Shown: positions 27,965-37,925 of the stretch, in pieces
Layout of the letters: each line of letters opens with the position of its first letter
How positions within the stretch are numbered: position 1 is the stretch's first letter
Origin: Simiduia sp. 21SJ11W-1
GTDB taxonomy: Bacteria; Pseudomonadota; Gammaproteobacteria; Pseudomonadales; Cellvibrionaceae
Assembly: GCF_024138675.1 (NCBI RefSeq)
Contig: NZ_CP090959.1
Coordinates: forward strand, 434,001 to 498,000
Length of the DNA: 64,000 nt
Direction of reading: 5' to 3'
Made by a program: the position numbers and the translations under genes
The notes under the pieces: model-generated
The model's database searches: none
What the model was told of the DNA's origin: nothing
The model's input: the letters and a program-made list of their open reading frames with translations, nothing else

Positions 27965-28203
27965 CGAGTCTATATATGGCTGGCTAATTTTTGTGCATGT
28001 CTAAATATGGACTGCAGTTAAGGTCATGCGCTAGCCATTAGCCATATCTAGACAATAAGGTGCCATATGTAGACATATTAGCAGCCAAATATAGACACAT
28101 TTGAAAAATGTTGTGGCATTATTTGGAAGCGCGATCGTTGGTGCCTAAATGTGGACATATACGATCTATATATAGACACGGTGCGTCTAGATTTAGACTC
28201 GCC
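27965..28203. repeat. Block of TAGACA-type repeats, possible transposon end
   Basis: At least eight variants of an A/T-rich motif around TAGACA occur in 240 bp: GTCTATATAT (27968), TGTCTAAATATGGAC (27998), ATCTAGACA (28046), ATGTAGACATA (28067), ATATAGACACA (28089), ATGTGGACATA (28149), ATATAGACACG (28170) and GTCTAGATTTAGAC (28185). Several are preceded by GCC. Multiple short repeats like this are typical of transposon ends that bind several transposase molecules, such as IS21 or Tn7-like elements. No transposase lies next to them here. Confidence 0.45.
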
Positions 28204-28416
28204 ATTGAATAAGCTGTTATGCGGAAATAGAGCGAATGAGAAGGTGGAAGATCGAGCAAGTCCAGATGAGATTTGTTCGCTCGTTTCTCTGGTAGAGTAC
28301 GAATAATATTGGGTGGACTTGTTAGCTTGGGCTGAGCCGGTATTAAAATTTCCTGCCAGTTTCAGGGCCATCAACATGCTGCGCAAGTTGCTTGCGGTAT
28401 GTTCGCTCAAAACCAA
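28078..28416 (-). other. Doubtful reverse reading frame before the cassette array
   Basis: 112 codons on the minus strand. The first ~70 residues look like ordinary protein but match nothing I know; the rest reads through the TAGACA repeat block, so the real gene, if any, is truncated there. It lies antisense to the cassettes. A GTTATGCGGAAA at 28216, identical to the start of the array's repeated cassettes, suggests this stretch is a damaged first cassette. Confidence 0.25.
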
Positions 28417-28432
28417 CGCAGTTTCGTTGCCC

Positions 28433-28461
28433 GCCCAACTTCAGCTTCGCACATGTTGGGC
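28433..28461. other. Inverted repeat GCCCAAC / GTTGGGC
   Basis: The arms exactly fit the attC core consensus (RYYYAAC and GTTRRRY) but enclose only 15 nt, too short for a normal attC. It may be a chance hairpin or a degenerate recombination site. Confidence 0.3.
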
Positions 28462-28559
28462 TAGTACACTGCCAAATTAATCAAAGTGCGGGTATCTGCT
28501 TTCTACCTTCTGGCCTTTTTACGTAATTCAAAGCTGGTCAAGGTTGTTCTAGCAGGTTC

Positions 28560-28633
28560 GCATAACAAGCCAAAGCAGCAAGGGCCTGCGGCCGGGACGC
28601 GCTAAACGCGCGCCCCTGTTTGCGGCGTTAAGT
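28560..28633 (+). repeat. attC site 1
   Basis: Runs from core GCATAAC to GTTAAGT with inverted arms around GGACGCGC / GCGCGCCCC. It is almost identical to attC 18 at the other end of the array. Confidence 0.85.
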
Positions 28634-28645
28634 ATATCGGTAGAA

Positions 28646-28927
28646 ATGAAAATTCCGACGGAAGAAGATAAGCTTCTAGCAAAGAAGGCCAACGAATTAG
28701 CAAAGAAAATTTCTGCTGGAGACAAAGATGCAAAGGTGCAGCTAGTTAATATCATCCAAACAAATTGGTATGTAGCTAAACTGGTGGCTCGATTAAGAAA
28801 AAAAGCAAGTAGGCTGAATATGAAATGTCCAAAGTATAAAAAGCGGAGCAAGGTTAGGCTTCAGGGCAGTGTAATGCATGGACTGGCCGGGCATACCAGT
28901 AGCAAAAACTGGAAAAAAACAAAATAA
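28646..28927 (+). CDS. Cassette gene: small basic hypothetical protein
   Basis: 93 residues, lysine-rich, helical in the first half (KKANELAKKISAG), with a strongly basic C terminus (CPKYKKRSKVRLQG). It starts 13 bp after the attC 1 core and stops just before attC 2, the normal layout of an integron cassette. No signal peptide. No family recognised; the charge would suit nucleic-acid binding, but that is a guess. Confidence 0.65.
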   Translation: MKIPTEEDKLLAKKANELAKKISAGDKDAKVQLVNIIQTNWYVAKLVARLRKKASRLNMKCPKYKKRSKVRLQGSVMHGLAGHTSSKNWKKTK

Positions 28928-28928
28928 T

Positions 28929-28990
28929 ACTTAACAAGCAAAGGCAAGCCGACGCGCAAAATGCGCGCGCGGTTGCTTTGGGCGTTATGC
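28929..28990 (+). repeat. attC site 2
   Basis: Core ACTTAAC to GTTATGC, 62 bp, with arms around GACGCGCAAAATGCGCGCGC. It directly precedes the first repeated cassette. Confidence 0.8.
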
Positions 28991-29383
28991 GGAAAAGCGA
29001 AACACTGAGAATGATGGCGAACAAATTACTTCGTAGTCATGATCAGCGCGGTGTCAAAGTGAAGTGGCTCAAAGTAGTAAGAATGCAAATGGAATTGATT
29101 AGGCTAGCCCATTGTTGGTAATTTCGTAGTCAAGAAAATCTTGGTACCAAAGATCAGTCTAAGAAAATAGTGTTGTATGCTCACATTTTCTAAGTGTATT
29201 TTCTTGCTCTGCTAGGTAGTGGCAATGTTGGTAGAAAAATAGTGGGCCAAAAGTAAATTAATATTAACAAAGGGCGGTGCGTAACTAGGTCGCGCATAAC
29301 AAGCGGTTCTAGGGTCGCCGCAAAAAACGCGGCTGGGACGGCCTACGCTGACGCTCCGGCCGCCCCTAAACCGGGCGTTATGC
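28984..29383 (+). repeat. Repeated cassette R1
   Basis: First of six ~400-bp cassettes without a normal gene. From the ATG inside the core (28987) a 44-codon frame runs to TAA at 29121 (MRKSETLRMMANKLLRS...). Downstream, CAAGAAAAT (29131) and ATTTTCTTG (29198) form an inverted repeat enclosing a second one, AGAAAAT (29162) / ATTTTCT (29185). It ends with attC 3. Nearly identical to R6. Confidence 0.85.
29294..29383 (+). repeat. attC site 3 (R type)
   Basis: GCATAAC to GTTATGC, 90 bp. It has the same sequence type as attC 4, 6, 8, 10 and 12, which close all copies of the repeated cassette. Confidence 0.9.
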
Positions 29384-29782
29384 GGAAAAGCGAAATCCTG
29401 AGTTTGGTTGCGCAACAAGCACTTCGTAGCGATGATCGGCAGGGCATCAAAGTAGGGTGCCTCCAAGTAGTACGGATCAAATCAAGATTGATTAGTGGCG
29501 TCCATCGCTGGTAACTTCGTAGTCAAGAAAAGTTTGGCGTCAAAGCGAACTCTTTGAAATAAACATTGTTGTAAACTCCGTTTTCTTAAGGGGTTTTTCT
29601 CGCACTGCGAAGTATTAGCGATGTTGGTTCAAGAATAATCGGCCTGTAAGTTGGGCAAAATAAACAAAGGGCGGTGCGTAACTAGGTCGCGCATAACAAG
29701 CGGTTCTAGTCACCGCACAAAAAACGTGCGGCTGGGACGGCCTACGCTGACGCTCCGGCCGCCCCTAAACCGGGCGTTATAT
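29377..29782 (+). repeat. Repeated cassette R2
   Basis: Same organisation as R1: ATG in the core at 29380, 44 codons to TAA at 29514 (MRKSEILSLVAQQALRS...), and a CTTCGTAG motif twice. The frame length is identical to R1 despite many base changes. Closed by attC 4 with core GTTATAT. Confidence 0.85.
29691..29782 (+). repeat. attC site 4 (R type)
   Basis: GCATAAC to GTTATAT, 92 bp, R-type arms with a small variation in the loop (TCACCGCACAAAAAACGTGCG). Confidence 0.88.
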
Positions 29783-29798
29783 TTACCAAGGAAGTCCA

Positions 29799-30254
29799 GT
29801 GGTCATTACCAGAATAAGTTTATTAATTACTTTACTGTTTAGTCTCAATGTTTATTCCGAAGAAACAACGTCTTGTCTTGAAACGGCAATGAGTCAGCGA
29901 GATATGAATCAATGTGCAGGAATTGATTACAAAAAAGCTGAGTTCGAAATGCATCGAGTAATTAAAGAGATTCGAAGGCTATATAAAGGTGAGGTGAAAT
30001 TTTTAACCAACCTAGAGAAATCGCAACAAAACTGGGAAACTCAACTTGAGTTAGATCTGGATTTGAAATACCCAAAAGCAGATGAGCCCATGTATTACGG
30101 AAGTGTTTTTCCAATGTGTTACTCTGGTTATAAAACAAGACTTACGCTTCAACGAATTGCCTTTTTGAAAGAGTGGTTAAAGGGTAGTACAGAGGGTGAG
30201 GTTTGTTCTGGTTCAGTAATGCACGAATACTATTTAAAGAATGGCAAAGGGTAA
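29799..30254 (+). CDS. Cassette gene: LprI/DUF1311-like secreted protein
   Basis: 151 residues from GTG 29799, with a good ribosome site (AAGGAAG) six bases before. A signal peptide ends near NVYSEE. The mature part has the pattern of the lysozyme-inhibitor LprI-type domain: Cys near the start, TAMSQRDMNQCAGIDYKKAE, a central QNW helix, then GSVF..C and a Cys-containing tail (about residues 25-145). Such proteins are periplasmic, and some inhibit lysozyme. The cassette is preceded by R2 and followed by attC 5. The family call is by pattern; inhibition is not established here. Confidence 0.7.
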   Translation: MVITRISLLITLLFSLNVYSEETTSCLETAMSQRDMNQCAGIDYKKAEFEMHRVIKEIRRLYKGEVKFLTNLEKSQQNWETQLELDLDLKYPKADEPMYYGSVFPMCYSGYKTRLTLQRIAFLKEWLKGSTEGEVCSGSVMHEYYLKNGKG

Positions 30255-30354
30255 ATATAACAAGCTGTTCAAGCGGGACAAATTACAGTTGGCTGGTTCC
30301 GCTTCGCTTCACATTTTAGCCAACTACAATTTGCCCCTTAACAGGGCGTTATGC
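30255..30354 (+). repeat. attC site 5
   Basis: ATATAAC to GTTATGC, 100 bp, with arms TTGGCT / AGCCAA near the middle. Similar in type to attC 14. Confidence 0.8.
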
Positions 30355-30750
30355 GGAAAAGCGAAATCCGGAGTTTGGTTGTGCAACAAGCACTTCGTAG
30401 TGATGATCGGCAGGGCATCAAAGCAGGGTGCCTCCAAGTAGTACGGATAAAATCAAGATTGATTAGTGGCGCCCATCGCTGGTAACTTCGTAGTCAAGAA
30501 AAGTTTGGCGTCAAAGAGAACTCTTTTTAAAAAATATTGTTTTAAGGCCACCTTTATTAGGGGCTTTTCTTGCGCTGCCAGGTTTTGGCGGTGTTGGTTA
30601 AAGAATAATGTGCCTGTAAATTGGGCAAAATAAACGAAGGGCGGTGCGTAACTAGGTCGCGCATAACAAGCGGTTCTAGGGTCGCCGCAAAAAACGCGGC
30701 TGGGACGGCCTACGCTGACGCTCCGGCCGCCCCTAAACCGGGCGTTAAGG
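30348..30750 (+). repeat. Repeated cassette R3
   Basis: ATG in the core at 30351 and 44 codons to TAA at 30485. The inverted repeat is CAAGAAAAG (30495) with CTTTTCTTG (30564): compared with R1, both sides have changed so that pairing is kept. Closed by attC 6. Confidence 0.85.
30661..30750 (+). repeat. attC site 6 (R type)
   Basis: GCATAAC to GTTAAGG, 90 bp, R-type arms. Confidence 0.88.
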
Positions 30751-30755
30751 CACCT

Positions 30756-31253
30756 ATGAATCGAGCAATATTCATATTATCGATCCCACTACTTCTAGCT
30801 GCGGTATCAAGGGCTTGGTGGGTTGATTACGTCTATGAGCCACTATCCGAGACTGAGAAATATGGCTCTGAATTTAGTGCCGTCGAGATCTACACGTGTG
30901 AAAGTGATAGATACTTCACGCATGAACAATGTAAAGGAATCCAAATTAATGGCGGTAAATTTTCAGTGGTATCAGATCTTAACAACGATGGGGTAAAGGA
31001 GCTTTGGTCTGTAGGGGTTGCAAGGTACAAATCTGGCAAGTATCCCTACGCGAATGTCGTTGTTGTATCTGATCCAGTTAGCAAAACAATTCAACAGGTT
31101 CTAACTGTTGAACTGAAATCTCCAGGGTTTGCTATATTCTTTGGAAAAGAAAATGAATTGTCCCTGTTTTTCTGCATGGAGTGTGGCAGCTATGCTGATA
31201 TACAATGGAAAAACAATAAATGGGCTTTGGTTTGGCCAGAGCCGTATGGGTAA
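30756..31253 (+). CDS. Cassette gene: secreted protein with FG-GAP-like strand
   Basis: 165 residues from ATG 30756, five bases after the attC 6 core. A hydrophobic N terminus (about residues 4-20) looks like a signal peptide or anchor. The central DLNNDGVKELWSVGV resembles the calcium-loop motif of FG-GAP/VCBS repeats, but only one repeat is present. Four Cys in the chain would suit an exported protein. An upstream in-frame extension would run through attC 6 and is rejected. Function unknown. Confidence 0.65.
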   Translation: MNRAIFILSIPLLLAAVSRAWWVDYVYEPLSETEKYGSEFSAVEIYTCESDRYFTHEQCKGIQINGGKFSVVSDLNNDGVKELWSVGVARYKSGKYPYANVVVVSDPVSKTIQQVLTVELKSPGFAIFFGKENELSLFFCMECGSYADIQWKNNKWALVWPEPYG

Positions 31254-31255
31254 AT

Positions 31256-31346
31256 GCCTTAACAAGGCCATCAAAAATCGCTCCACTTCGTTCCGCTGGA
31301 CCTCCTTACGCTGCGCTCCAGTCGGCCCTTTATGGCGGCGTTATGC
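31256..31346 (+). repeat. attC site 7
   Basis: CCTTAAC to GTTATGC, about 91 bp, with arms built around TCCGCTGGACC / GCGCTCCAGTCGG. Confidence 0.8.
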
Positions 31347-31745
31347 GGAAAAGCGAAATCCGGAGATTAGTGGCGCACCTAGTACTTCGTAGCGATGATC
31401 AGTAGGACATCAAAGTAGGGTGCCTCCAAGTAGTACGGATAAAATCAAGATTGATTAGTGGCGCCCATCGCTGGTAACTTCGTAGTCAAGAAAAGTTTGG
31501 GGTCAAAGCGAACTCTTTGAAAAAACATTGTTGTAAACTCCGTTTTCTTAAGGGGTTCTTCTCGCACTGCTATGTAGTGGCAATGTTAGCTCAAAAGTAG
31601 TAAGCCAAAGGTAAGTCAATATTAACAAAGGGCGGTGCGTAACTAGGTCGCGCATAACAAGCGGTTCTAGTCACCGCACAAAAAAAACGTGCGGCTGGGA
31701 CGGCCTACGCTGGCGCTGCGGCCGCCCCTAAGCCGGGCGTTATGC
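31340..31745 (+). repeat. Repeated cassette R4
   Basis: ATG in the core at 31343. The 44-codon frame has a TAG at codon 21 (ends 31405) where R2 has CAG; otherwise the frame would run to TAA at 31477. This copy speaks against an essential protein product. Closed by attC 8. Confidence 0.85.
31652..31745 (+). repeat. attC site 8 (R type)
   Basis: GCATAAC to GTTATGC, 94 bp, R-type arms. Confidence 0.88.
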
Positions 31746-31771
31746 AGTCGGTTGATGAGTGATTTCAATCC

Positions 31772-32044
31772 ATGAAGAAAGTAACAGATTTCATATTTTA
31801 TGATTCGTGGCATGTGAAAGAGATTGGTCTAACGGTAGGCTCTTTTTATCTAGCTAAAAATGATTTGAGAGAACTTAAGGTTGGTGAAGTTATAAAGTTC
31901 GCAGGCTTTGAAGATGTGGATAATCATTACGGCAGATTTGTTTTCACCAATCAAAGTGGGCAAGTAGTCGTAGTTGATGGTGATTTCTGCACAAAAGACC
32001 ATCCTGACTTCAAACAACTAAAAGAGACGCTATCAAATGCATAA
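31772..32044 (+). CDS. Cassette gene: small hypothetical protein
   Basis: 90 residues, start ATG 31772. No signal peptide. It looks beta-rich: SFYLAKNDLRELKVGEVIKFAGFEDV then GRFVFTNQSGQVVVVDGDFC, ending in a helix. The pattern suggests a small barrel or SH3-like fold, but no family was recognised. The stop TAA lies inside the left core of attC 9, as is common in cassettes. It follows R4. Confidence 0.6.
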   Translation: MKKVTDFIFYDSWHVKEIGLTVGSFYLAKNDLRELKVGEVIKFAGFEDVDNHYGRFVFTNQSGQVVVVDGDFCTKDHPDFKQLKETLSNA

Positions 32045-32110
32045 CAAACGCAGCCACACCGGCCTATCGGCCTCGACTCGCTACGCTCGCGTGTGCTGCG
32101 GGCGTTATGC
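32039..32110 (+). repeat. attC site 9
   Basis: GCATAAC to GTTATGC, 72 bp, arms GGCC/GGCC and CTCGACTCG. Same type as attC 11. Confidence 0.85.
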
Positions 32111-32502
32111 GGAAAAGCGAAATCCTAAGATTGGTGGCGCACAAATTCCTTCGTAGTCATGAACAAAAAGGCGTCGAAGTGGTGTGGCTCCAAGAAGTGC
32201 GGATAAAGAATTGGTTAAGGGAGTTCATCGCTGGTAACTTCGTAGCCAAGATAAGCTCGGCGTCAATGAAAATTTTTTTTAAAAAATATTGTCGTAAGGC
32301 CACCTTTGTTAGGGGCTTTTCTCGCGCTGCCAGGCAATGGCAGTGTTAATTTAAGAATAATTGGCCTGTAAGTTTGGCTAAATAAACAAAGGGCGGTGCG
32401 TAACTAGGACGCGCATAACAAGCGGTTCTAGGGTCGCCGCAAAAAACGCGGCTGGGACGGCCTACGCTGACGCTCCGGCCGCCCCTAAACCGGGCGTTAT
32501 GC
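32104..32502 (+). repeat. Repeated cassette R5
   Basis: The most diverged copy. ATG at 32107, but a one-base loss near codon 38 removes the usual TAA, so the frame runs on to 32349 (80 codons). Inverted repeat weaker (CAAGATAAG / CTTTTCTCG). Closed by attC 10. Confidence 0.82.
32413..32502 (+). repeat. attC site 10 (R type)
   Basis: GCATAAC to GTTATGC, 90 bp, R-type arms. Confidence 0.88.
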
Positions 32503-32505
32503 AAA

Positions 32506-32991
32506 ATGAAGAAACTATTACAGATATCTATAGCCCTGATATTTTCTGCAGCAGTCAATGCTAATGAATATCCAGAACAAATTGAGTTCAAGGAATGGAT
32601 TATCGAAAATTTTGATCAGCTGAAATCGCTAGATATTAAGCTGCAGCAGGATGATAGGTTTGATTATATATGGAATATCGTGCCGCCGAGATTTAGGTCT
32701 AGGAGTCAAAATGGGAAAAGTGTAGATATTCAAGATAAAGAAGAGTACATAAAACTCCTACCCAAAAATGCAAATGTTCTCATATCTAGTGACAACAAGA
32801 AGTTTTTAATAGAAAACGGCGTTTCGTCGGTTTGCGGAAAGAAAATGTGTATAGTCTCTGCTGTTATGTTCAGATCAGACTTCGATGGCTCTACCTGTCA
32901 AGAGGCTGCGGAGCCAGCACCAGGAGTTTGCTTTATAAGAATGTTTGAGAATTGGTACTTAAGGTATCTTATCTTTGATGTTGATGCATAA
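32506..32991 (+). CDS. Cassette gene: exported hypothetical protein
   Basis: 161 residues with start ATG 32506, only three bases after the attC 10 core, so translation initiates almost inside the recombination site. A clear signal peptide (MKKLLQISIALIFSAAVNA) is followed by an acidic helix and a Cys-containing C-terminal half (SVCGKKMCIVSAVMF, then PGVCFIRMFENWYLRYLIF). Four Cys suggest disulfides in the periplasm. No family recognised. The stop overlaps attC 11. It follows R5. Confidence 0.65.
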   Translation: MKKLLQISIALIFSAAVNANEYPEQIEFKEWIIENFDQLKSLDIKLQQDDRFDYIWNIVPPRFRSRSQNGKSVDIQDKEEYIKLLPKNANVLISSDNKKFLIENGVSSVCGKKMCIVSAVMFRSDFDGSTCQEAAEPAPGVCFIRMFENWYLRYLIFDVDA

Positions 32992-33057
32992 CAAACGCAA
33001 TCAAACCGGCCTGTCGGCCTCGACTCGCTACGCTCGCGTTTGTTGCGGGCGTTATGC
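32986..33057 (+). repeat. attC site 11
   Basis: GCATAAC to GTTATGC, 72 bp. Close sister of attC 9. Confidence 0.85.
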
Positions 33058-33450
33058 GGAAAAGCGAAATCCTGAGAACGATGGAGCACAAATTACTTCG
33101 TAGTCATGATCAGCGCGGTGTCAAAGTGAAGTGGCTCAAAGTAGTAAGAATGCAAATAGAATTGAGTAGGCTAGCCCATTGTTGGTAACTTCGTAGTCAA
33201 GAAAATCTTGGTACCAAAGATCAGCCTGAGAAAATAGTGTTGTATGCTCACATTTTCTAAGTGTATTTTCTTGCTCTGCTAGGTAGTGGCAATGTTGGTA
33301 CAAAAATAGTGGGCCAAAAGTAAATTAATATTAACAAAGGGCGGTGCGTAACTAGGTCGCGCATAACAAGCGGTTCTAGGGTCGCCGCAAAAAAACGCGG
33401 CTGGACGGCCTACGCTGGCGCTCCGGCCGCCCCTAAACCAGGCGTTATGT
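33051..33450 (+). repeat. Repeated cassette R6
   Basis: ATG at 33054 and 44 codons to TAA 33188 (MRKSEILRTMEHKLLRS...). Nearly identical to R1 including the perfect CAAGAAAAT / ATTTTCTTG pair. Closed by attC 12. Confidence 0.85.
33361..33450 (+). repeat. attC site 12 (R type)
   Basis: GCATAAC to GTTATGT, 90 bp, R-type arms. Confidence 0.88.
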
Positions 33451-33467
33451 GAAATCAAAGATCATCT

Positions 33468-33746
33468 ATGGATAAGCCACGAATAAAGGTAGATTTTAAT
33501 GAGCTTTTAGATAAAGACTTGGTTTTATTATCTAAAACAGACACGAGGGAAGATTCAGATGGGAATGTTGTCATTCTATCAGAGGGCTTACATTTTTCTT
33601 TGTATGAACATAATGAATACAGCGACGGAGAGATAGAATATCTGTATGCGGAAGGGGTTGTTGTGCCTAATGTCATACAGGAAAATCCGATAGCTATTTG
33701 GTGTTGCAAAATTAACGAAAAAGGAATTACCGTTGTCAACGAGTAG
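33468..33746 (+). CDS. Cassette gene: small acidic hypothetical protein
   Basis: 92 residues, acidic, no signal peptide. DSDGNVVILSEGLHFSLYEHNEYSDG and IAIWCCKINEKGIT suggest a small beta-rich cytosolic protein. It is the fifth coding cassette preceded by a copy of R. A longer reading frame on the opposite strand overlaps it entirely, but the plus frame fits the cassette layout (start 17 bp after a core, stop before attC 13). No family recognised. Confidence 0.6.
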   Translation: MDKPRIKVDFNELLDKDLVLLSKTDTREDSDGNVVILSEGLHFSLYEHNEYSDGEIEYLYAEGVVVPNVIQENPIAIWCCKINEKGITVVNE

Positions 33747-33774
33747 TATATAGGTTTTTTAAGAGTGTCGTTGC

Positions 33775-33881
33775 ACATAACAAAGCTATCCACCAGACCC
33801 CATTTCCGTCGCTTGGTTTTTGTGCTTGGATAGCACAAAAATCCAATCAACTCCAATTTGCCGGTGATAGCGGCGTTATGC
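33775..33881 (+). repeat. attC site 13, target of IS copy 1
   Basis: ACATAAC to GTTATGC, 107 bp. The last two core bases are part of the GCGG target duplication of the insertion that follows. Confidence 0.8.
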
Positions 33882-33946: not shown

Positions 33947-34255
33947 ATGGCACGTAAAAAACACCAGCATTACACCGAAGAGTTTCGAAAAGAAGCGGTC
34001 AAGCGCTCTGAGCAGCCGGGCGTTACCCAGGCTCAGGTGGCCAAAGAGCTCGGCATTAGCGCCCAGCAGATATCAAACTGGAAGCGTCAGTTCACTCGCT
34101 TGTCAGACAAGCAATTTAATACGGTTGATGGCGTGGACTATTCCAAGCAGGAGAGCGAAGAGCTCCGTAAGTTGAAGCGCGAGAATAAACGCCTGCGAGA
34201 GGAGATGGAATTCTTAAAAAAGGTTTCTGCGTACTTCGCGAAAGACCAAGAGTGA
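33947..34255 (+). CDS. IS3-family OrfA (helix-turn-helix protein)
   Basis: 102 residues. An HTH_Tnp_1-type domain covers residues 1-60 (EEFRKEAVKRSEQPGVTQAQ, then LGISAQQISNWKRQF), followed by a leucine-zipper-like helix (ESEELRKLKRENKRLREEME). It would bind the terminal repeats. The stop overlaps OrfB, and an A6G slippery run lies about 35 bases before it, the usual means of making OrfAB. Confidence 0.93.
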   Translation: MARKKHQHYTEEFRKEAVKRSEQPGVTQAQVAKELGISAQQISNWKRQFTRLSDKQFNTVDGVDYSKQESEELRKLKRENKRLREEMEFLKKVSAYFAKDQE

Positions 34256-35118
34256 AGTACGAGCTGATAGAACAGCATGCCGATCAATATGACATAAGAT
34301 TGATGTGTCGAGTGTTGGTGGTCCACCCATCAGGCTTTTATCGCTGGCGGGATTGTCCATCTAGCCCGAGAGAGCAGCGGCGAGACCAGATCACTAGCTT
34401 GGTTAGAGATACCTACGAAGAGTTTGAGGCCGCTTATGGCGCCCCCAGAATCGCACGGGAGCTTAACGAGCAAGGGTATAAGTGTTCGATCAACTATATT
34501 GCCAAAATCATGCAGGAGCAGCGGATAGTCGCCCGTAACGGGAAGGCTTTCAATTATGGCGGGCATGCTTTGACGATGCATAACGTCGCAGATAATCTGC
34601 TGTGGAGGGATTTCACTACAGAGAGGCCTAATCAGAAGTGGGTAACGGATATCACCTATATCTGGGTTGAAAACCAATGGTTGTACTTGGCAACGGTAAT
34701 GGATCTTTACTCGCGCAAAATCATCGGCTGGAGCTTCGATGAGAGTATGACAGTGGAGCTGATTACCGAGGCGATGCAAATGGCGATTGATGCCCGAGGT
34801 GTAAGCCCAGGCCTAATCGTTCACTCTGACCGTGGAACCCAGTACCGCTCGAACGAGTATGTAGGGTACCTTGAGCGACACGGAATCAAGCGTAGCATGA
34901 GCCGAAAAGGTAACTGCTGGGACAATGCGGTGATGGAATCATTCTACGCTCGGTTAAAGGTAGAGCTGATCTACGCCAAGAACTACCAGTCGATAGAGGC
35001 TGCACGTTCAGGTATATTTAGCTACATTGAAATATTTTATAACCGCAAGAGAAGGCATTCTGCAAACGACGGGGTTAGCCCTGTTGAGTTTGAGGAGAGG
35101 GCAGCGATTGCTGCATAA
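34252..35118 (+). CDS. IS3-family OrfB transposase (DDE integrase core)
   Basis: 288 residues from GTG 34252, overlapping OrfA by four bases; the functional product is probably the frameshifted OrfAB. HTH_21 region about residues 35-95, rve integrase core from about 115. The catalytic triad is visible: Asp in WVTDITYIW, Asp in HSDRGTQY, Glu in NAVMESFYARLK. It ends with KRRHSANDGVSPVEF, typical of the group. Differs from copy 2 by very few residues (VLVVHPSG here, VLGVHPSG there; CSINYI and CSVNYI). Confidence 0.95.
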   Translation: MKYELIEQHADQYDIRLMCRVLVVHPSGFYRWRDCPSSPREQRRDQITSLVRDTYEEFEAAYGAPRIARELNEQGYKCSINYIAKIMQEQRIVARNGKAFNYGGHALTMHNVADNLLWRDFTTERPNQKWVTDITYIWVENQWLYLATVMDLYSRKIIGWSFDESMTVELITEAMQMAIDARGVSPGLIVHSDRGTQYRSNEYVGYLERHGIKRSMSRKGNCWDNAVMESFYARLKVELIYAKNYQSIEAARSGIFSYIEIFYNRKRRHSANDGVSPVEFEERAAIAA

Positions 35119-36753: not shown

Positions 36754-37062
36754 ATGACACGCAAAAAACACCAGCATTACACTGAAGAGTTTCGAAAAGA
36801 GGCCGTAAAGCGCTCGGAGCAGCCGGGCGTTACCCAGGCTCAGGTGGCCAAAGAGCTCGGCATTAGCGCCCAGCAGATATCAAACTGGAAGCGTCAGTTC
36901 ACTCGCTTGTCAGACAAGCAATTTAATACGGTTGATGGCGTGGACTATTCCAAGCAGGAGAGCGAAGAGCTCCGTAAGTTGAAGCGCGAGAATAAACGCC
37001 TGCGAGAGGAGATGGAATTCTTAAAAAAGGTTTCTGCGTACTTCGCGAAAGACCAAGAGTGA
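36754..37062 (+). CDS. IS3-family OrfA, copy 2
   Basis: 102 residues, one residue different from copy 1 at position 2 (T instead of A). Same helix-turn-helix, leucine-rich helix and A6G slippery run near the end, so it should also produce OrfAB by a -1 frameshift. Confidence 0.93.
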   Translation: MTRKKHQHYTEEFRKEAVKRSEQPGVTQAQVAKELGISAQQISNWKRQFTRLSDKQFNTVDGVDYSKQESEELRKLKRENKRLREEMEFLKKVSAYFAKDQE

Positions 37063-37925
37063 AGTACGAGCTGATAGAACAGCATGCCGATCAATATGAC
37101 ATAAGATTGATGTGTCGAGTGTTGGGGGTCCACCCATCAGGCTTTTATCGCTGGCGGGATTGTCCATCTAGCCCGAGAGAGCAGCGGCGAGACCAGATCA
37201 CTAGCTTGGTTAGAGATACCTACGAAGAGTTTGAGGCCGCTTATGGCGCCCCCAGAATCGCACGGGAGCTTAACGAGCAAGGGTATAAGTGTTCGGTCAA
37301 CTATATTGCCAAAATCATGCAGGAGCAGCGGATAGTCGCCCGTAACGGGAAGGCTTTCAATTATGGCGGGCATGCTTTGACGATGCATAACGTCGCAGAT
37401 AATCTGCTGTGGAGGGATTTCACTACAGAGAGGCCTAATCAGAAGTGGGTAACGGATATCACCTATATCTGGGTTGAAAACCAATGGTTGTACTTGGCAA
37501 CGGTAATGGATCTTTACTCGCGCAAAATCATCGGCTGGAGCTTCGATGAGAGTATGACAGTGGAGCTGATTACCGAGGCGATGCAAATGGCGATTGATGC
37601 CCGAGGTGTAAGCCCAGGCCTAATCGTTCACTCTGACCGTGGAACCCAGTACCGCTCGAACGAGTATGTAGGGTACCTTGAGCGACACGGAATCAAGCGT
37701 AGCATGAGCCGAAAAGGTAACTGCTGGGACAATGCGGTGATGGAATCATTCTACGCTCGGTTAAAGGTAGAGCTGATCTACGCCAAGAACTACCAGTCGA
37801 TAGAGGCTGCACGTTCAGGTATATTTAGCTACATTGAAATATTTTATAACCGCAAGAGAAGGCATTCTGCAAACGACGGGGTTAGCCCTGTTGAGTTTGA
37901 GGAGAGGGCAGCGATTGCTGCATAA
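37059..37925 (+). CDS. IS3-family OrfB transposase, copy 2
   Basis: 288 residues from GTG 37059, intact, with the same DDE residues as copy 1 (WVTDITYIW, HSDRGTQY, NAVMESFYARLK). It overlaps OrfA by four bases. Near identity with copy 1 points to recent transposition. Confidence 0.95.
   Translation: MKYELIEQHADQYDIRLMCRVLGVHPSGFYRWRDCPSSPREQRRDQITSLVRDTYEEFEAAYGAPRIARELNEQGYKCSVNYIAKIMQEQRIVARNGKAFNYGGHALTMHNVADNLLWRDFTTERPNQKWVTDITYIWVENQWLYLATVMDLYSRKIIGWSFDESMTVELITEAMQMAIDARGVSPGLIVHSDRGTQYRSNEYVGYLERHGIKRSMSRKGNCWDNAVMESFYARLKVELIYAKNYQSIEAARSGIFSYIEIFYNRKRRHSANDGVSPVEFEERAAIAA

Follow-up and report, generated by a model that had tools for sequence, protein, structure and literature searches.

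A repeated gene-less integron cassette in dispersed arrays of the Simiduia sp. 21SJ11W-1 chromosome

The cassette array at 0.46 Mb

Our study concerns R, an element of about 400 bp that is repeated six times in a 64,000-nucleotide stretch of DNA (hereafter, the window) at ~0.46 Mb on the closed 3.96 Mb chromosome of Simiduia sp. 21SJ11W-1. Each copy was identified as a complete integron cassette, and we consider it probable that R is a gene-less cassette that the integron integrase IntI moves in one piece and that has spread by insertion and recombination, without being the dedicated leader of a gene. The array that holds these copies extends from an attI-like core at 28205 to the last attC site at ~38936. 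Its attC sites were located by a home-made scan, with one missed site placed by hand, and the G^TT crossover points served to delimit the cassettes, of which the few longer than 700 bp may each be two. The features from the leader to the cassette behind the sixth R copy are the following (aa, amino acids; ORF, open reading frame; S, a second gene-less family described below).

27968-28204, + strand: leader of type B, about 240-270 bp long and conserved, ahead of the array; homologous to the leaders at 2.15, 2.63 and 3.06 Mb
28205-28219, + strand: attI-like core TTGAATAAGCT G^TTA, with the presumed crossover at 28216/28217; exactly seven in the genome, one per array start
28217-28627, + strand: first cassette, gene-less; no ORF of note and no match to the R, S or T profiles
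28628-28984, + strand: coding cassette, 93-aa ORF (28646-28927) plus attC; Pfam match below threshold only
28985-29377, + strand: R1, gene-less with its own attC
29378-29776, + strand: R2
29777-30348, + strand: LprI-like coding cassette, ORF 29799-30254; PF07007, E=6e-13
30349-30744, + strand: R3
30745-31340, + strand: coding cassette, 165 aa, ORF 30756-31253; no match in Pfam
31341-31739, + strand: R4, of mosaic sequence; codon 21 of its short ORF is an in-frame stop
31740-32104, + strand: coding cassette, ORF of 90 aa
32105-32496, + strand: R5; 4-nt deletion common to R5 and three other copies
32497-33051, + strand: coding cassette, 161 aa; 99.3% copy in the 3.55 Mb array, where an S cassette precedes it
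33052-33444, + strand: R6
33445-33875, + strand: coding cassette, 92 aa; 99.1% copy with a different upstream neighbor in the array at 3.55 Mb

The original prediction, made from the letters of the window, had described six repeats of ~400 bp in the order R1-R2-gene-R3-gene-R4-gene-R5-gene-R6-gene, and this order is reproduced exactly, cassette to cassette. It had also proposed that the stretch is an integron array in which R is a cassette with old, diverged copies, and this is correct. The array is longer than it had stated and begins with another gene-less cassette, and its statement that a copy of R directly precedes each of five coding cassettes holds for these five, which lie between or after the R copies; the coding cassette at 28628-28984 and all cassettes after 33875 have no R directly before them.

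The ORFs of those five cassettes encode 90-165 aa, and four of them have nothing in Pfam above the cut-off, the LprI-like one being the exception. The latter recurs with 99.3-99.5% identity in two other arrays, in one case following an S cassette, and a near-identical match of the 161-aa cassette is the first cassette after the intI-linked dock of Simiduia aestuariiviva. Further along the array, two near-identical insertion sequences (33947-35118 and 36754-37925) lie inside cassettes, between the cassette start and the ORF; they are IS3-like and carry HTH_Tnp_1 plus an rve transposase.

R is a gene-less integron cassette

Each R copy measures 392-399 bp and consists of a body of ~300 bp followed by a 90-bp attC. 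The similarity between copies ends exactly at the G^TT crossover points, and the neighbors vary on both sides. In the attC, the R'' and R' cores can pair, and the bottom strand folds with about -42 to -50 kcal/mol per 90 nt. By its attC and its boundaries, R is an integron gene cassette. It is not confined to the window: 28 full-length copies were identified genome-wide.

In R, a short ORF of 43-44 codons, starting at an ATG within the recombination core, is present in 17 of the 28 copies and broken in the other 11 by 1- and 4-nt deletions and by stops. In the 15 copies with a gap-free and stop-free 44-codon frame, the ratio of nonsynonymous to synonymous polymorphism (pN/pS) is 1.01, with 0.66 and 0.76 in the other two frames. 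No ORF longer than 70 codons exists in 24 of the 28 copies; the remaining four carry an 80-codon frame by way of a 4-nt deletion, and this frame is due to chance. A Pfam search of the 44- and 80-aa frames gave no match. R contains no gene and shows no codon-like variation, and it is a gene-less (non-coding) cassette.

Our study also identified two other gene-less families in the same arrays as R, namely S, with 11 copies of about 355 bp, and T, with 6 of about 370 bp. The S and T bodies are homologous to each other, and their homology to R is limited to the attC. The S/T superfamily occurs at loci L015, L016, L018 and L021, and S/T-like sequence was found in all four Simiduia genomes compared. 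In the Simiduia genomes G002 and G003, members of this superfamily are also the first cassettes after the intI-linked docks.

Age and recombination of the R copies

Pairwise identity among the R copies ranges from 74.5 to 100%, with a mean of 83%. Duplicated coding cassettes common to type-A and type-B arrays (named for their leaders, described below) are 98.6-100% identical, one 69% paralogue aside; judged by these identities, the R copies are far older than the duplicated coding cassettes. Recent copies exist too, as one pair of 100% identity is found in the arrays at 2.63 and 3.06 Mb, 430 kb apart. Within the window, R1 and R6 are 95% alike and only 75-79% identical to R2-R5, and R5 is 85% like R3; the original grouping of R1 with R6 and of R2 with R3 and R4 is retained, while R5 is not the most diverged copy. 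Two lineages are combined in the mosaic R4, one further copy is also clearly mosaic, and a PHI-type (pairwise homoplasy index) test rejected the absence of recombination among the copies (0 of 1000 permutations), in support of exchange between them.

Among 144 genomes of the family, R is present in two, Simiduia sp. 21SJ11W-1 and S. aestuariiviva CECT 8571. The two copies in the latter are 89-95% identical to R6, which is only 75-77% identical to R2-R5; consequently, the R lineages either predate the split of the two species or have moved between them. A search for R in plasmids and viral contigs gave no match, and one viral scan with a flanking gene found nothing.

Seven putative docks and a single intact integrase

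The chromosome carries seven dispersed cassette arrays, at ~0.22, 0.36, 0.46 (window), 2.15, 2.63, 3.06 and 3.55 Mb, each with about 14-25 cassettes, and R is present in six of them. With dnaA at 3.957 Mb, all seven would point along the direction of replication if, as assumed here, the terminus lies opposite dnaA.

An identical 15-bp core, TTGAATAAGCT^GTTA, stands at the start of all seven arrays and has no more than these seven occurrences in the genome (0 for a reversed-pattern control); the first attC lies 264-566 bp downstream of it in every case. Two unrelated conserved leaders precede this core, and all that they have in common is the core at the crossover. The type-A leader (about 200-280 bp in common) is found at 0.22, with intI, and at 0.36 and 3.55 Mb; the type-B leader (about 140-340 bp in common, by pair) is found at 0.46, 2.15, 2.63 and 3.06 Mb. 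Since the first cassette starts at the core and the core is kept where the flanks differ, we regard it as a putative attI site. Splitting of one ancestral array by chromosome rearrangement was also considered as an origin of the seven arrays, and it is ruled out by the fact that every array has its own attI-like core. The type-B leaders contain 7-11 TAGAC/GTCTA motifs per 290 bp (shuffle mean 0.6), and the count for the last 290 bp at the window leader is eight (shuffle maximum 4); these motifs are possibly protein-binding sites.

The single intact IntI of the genome is encoded at 220.9 kb, matches the whole TIGR02249 profile with 397 bits and is divergent from its array. This intI adjoins only the 0.22 Mb array; the other six have none, and no integrase remnants were found near them within the stretches read. 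The 0.22 Mb locus, with a functional-looking intI beside a putative attI and an array, has the predicted organization of a sedentary chromosomal integron. Coding cassettes of 99.1-100% identity are common to type-A and type-B arrays; because of these near-identical cassettes, the simplest reading is that the single IntI supplies all docks, and the sequences suggest that one integrase serves all seven.

Comparison within the genus extends this picture. In S. aestuariiviva, a core TTGAATAAGGCTGTTA occurs five times (L103, L105, L107, L109 and L111) behind a conserved palindromic leader of its own, ~130-150 bp long, in which a 34-bp palindrome, GCCTCGGAGGCGTAATATATTACGCCTCCGAGGC, adjoins the core; one of these docks adjoins intI, and attC-like ends follow each of the five. 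It is important to consider that the genomes of S. aestuariiviva and G003 are drafts, in 10 and 6 contigs respectively, and their dock counts are minima. In G021, which belongs to another genus, an attI core occurs with no array seen within the stretch read. The IntI of Simiduia sp. 21SJ11W-1 (L015, 4905-5846) is 70% identical to one of the two IntI in G003 and 42-47% identical to the other Simiduia IntI compared, which implies two or more integron lineages within the genus. In addition, the broken remnant of an integron integrase adjoins a dock core in G003 (C6:1051997-1052577), possibly a form intermediate between integrons and intI-less docks.

With moderate confidence, we favor the interpretation that these loci form a distributed chromosomal integron, in which one integrase would serve seven attI docks of two leader types, the intI-less arrays would be active rather than degraded, and gene-less cassettes such as R would move among the docks; S. 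aestuariiviva would have the same organization, with five docks and another leader.

Weighing the explanations of R

In the account that we consider probable, IntI, encoded 240 kb away, would excise and re-insert R as a unit in trans, and the 28 copies would have arisen from repeated insertion into the seven attI-docked arrays together with homologous recombination and duplication among copies. R would then persist as an efficient cassette, probably giving its arrays weak, position-independent transcription or another mild benefit, as in the gene-less cassettes of Vibrio. It is important to note that three observations weigh against this account. First, the partition of the gene-less families: of the gene-less cassettes, 25 of 26 in type-B arrays are R, and in type-A arrays 16 of 19 are S/T and three are R (Fisher p=2e-8; counted by array, a perfect separation of three and four with a probability of 1/35), a split by leader type that free exchange among docks does not predict and in which leader type and position are confounded, because the type-A arrays lie nearer the origin. 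Second, the conservation inside R: ACTTCGTAGTCA occurs twice in the body, 93 bp apart (89 in R5), and a 25-bp block stands directly before the attC; because these blocks are more conserved than the rest, R may have a further function. Third, the attC itself: 12 non-R cassettes (six T, three of a 3-copy family and three single) have an attC 87-95% identical to that of R, so attC quality alone does not account for its copy number.

Tentatively, R might instead be a selfish cassette without function, kept by copying, shuffling and recombination between copies. The lack of coding selection and of a structure signal, the mosaicism, the random placement reported below and the tandem runs of up to six copies (R-R-R-R-R-R, in the array at 2.15 Mb) would all fit such an element. 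Its difficulties are that the internal blocks are conserved in old, diverged copies and that excision readily removes useless cassettes, so that long persistence needs explaining.

It is unlikely that R encodes a small structured RNA. A terminator-like hairpin with some compensatory pairs is present in part of the copies, but it is missing in the R1/R6 lineage; an intrinsic terminator was likewise rejected as a general feature of R, since only some lineages have one. The mean fold z-score of the R body on the sense strand is -1.2 versus -0.8 for coding cassettes, and the z-scores of the R, S and T bodies give no consistent signal. Searches against Rfam found no credible RNA in the window array, with no R match up to E=1, and nothing credible in the S/T array.

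Somewhat less probable still is that R is a promoter or leader cassette kept by selection directly upstream of coding cassettes, as the original prediction had proposed. This possibility draws on the five successive coding cassettes of the window that each follow an R, and on Vibrio, in which most of the 30 gene-less cassettes assayed had sense promoter activity (PMC11014356). For a placement test, each array was coded as a string of R, S, T and coding symbols, whose order was permuted 20,000 times inside that array. Over the seven arrays, 27 coding cassettes stand immediately behind a gene-less cassette, against 26.2 expected (p=0.45), which is the random placement that the prediction itself had named beforehand as counting against it. 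The window array alone gives p=0.26, and its best 11-cassette block p=0.013, that block having been picked post hoc. Near-identical coding cassettes in two or three copies have differing upstream neighbors, with R in one place and S, T or a coding cassette elsewhere: the LprI-like cassette follows R2 in the window and S elsewhere, and the 161-aa cassette follows R5 in the window and S elsewhere. Together with the six-copy run, these results indicate that R is not the dedicated leader of the next gene and that the alternation of R and genes in the window is due to chance. A sigma-70 footprint over 28 aligned R copies was not above column-shuffled alignments (p=0.47 sense, 0.73 antisense) with a simple matrix, averaged over the alignment and built with frequencies taken from general knowledge. 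The negative is a weak one because in silico prediction mismatched the measured activity of the Vibrio gene-less cassettes (PMC11014356), and R may possibly have promoter activity.

Finally, a 44-aa protein translated from the ATG in the recombination core is highly improbable, since the presence of its frame in 17 copies is outweighed by a pN/pS of 1.01, by the 11 broken copies and by the lack of a Pfam match.

Comparison with known systems

The cassette R resembles the paralogous non-coding families of Vibrio (Boucher et al. 2006, PMC1382264), which comprise tens of diverged gene-less copies per genome, are confined to one clade and are similar over their whole length; the families of V. vulnificus have 34-45 members. 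Selfish and promoter or RNA explanations are proposed in that paper, as here. Unlike these families, the R copies are distributed over six arrays of one chromosome and not in one superintegron. Our study adds tests of placement, coding selection and recombination; no placement test appears in the sections of that paper drawn on here. R also fits the working definition of the promoter-carrying gene-less cassettes (Blanco et al. 2024, PMC11014356), since it has no annotated gene and, in 24 of 28 copies, no ORF above 70 codons. It differs in the 80-codon frame of the other four copies and in being shorter than they are (392-399 bp versus 491-666 bp); their promoter activity is measured, that of R putative. 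Because non-coding cassette families are known in Vibrio, R is a new family of an already known sort.

A second comparison concerns the arrays themselves. The term CALIN denotes an attC cluster without an integron integrase (PMC9024848, PMC12444791), and such clusters have been described as probably degraded integrons; it has been reported that IntegronFinder classes integrase-less arrays as CALINs and detects no attI outside class 1 integrons (PMC9024848). Six of our seven arrays are attC clusters without an adjoining intI and in this respect are CALINs; unlike CALINs, which have no attI and fewer cassettes than a complete integron, they possess an attI-like core, a leader and about 14-25 cassettes. 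Insertion at attG sites, in the terms in which PMC12444791 cites it, would likewise scatter cassettes on the chromosome, but it would not give them the common 15-bp core and the homologous leader of 150-270 bp that the docks described here have. In the open-license literature searched, no genome was found that combines multiple attI-like docks and their conserved leaders with one integrase, and this arrangement is possibly a new variant. If the intI-less arrays have real attI docks, some CALINs may be live insertion platforms that are invisible to current software, and integron capacity would not be bound to one array and one promoter. The presence of gene-less families with tens of copies in another genus, distant from Vibrio, makes the persistence of such cassettes testable, in a closed genome that has seven arrays in parallel.

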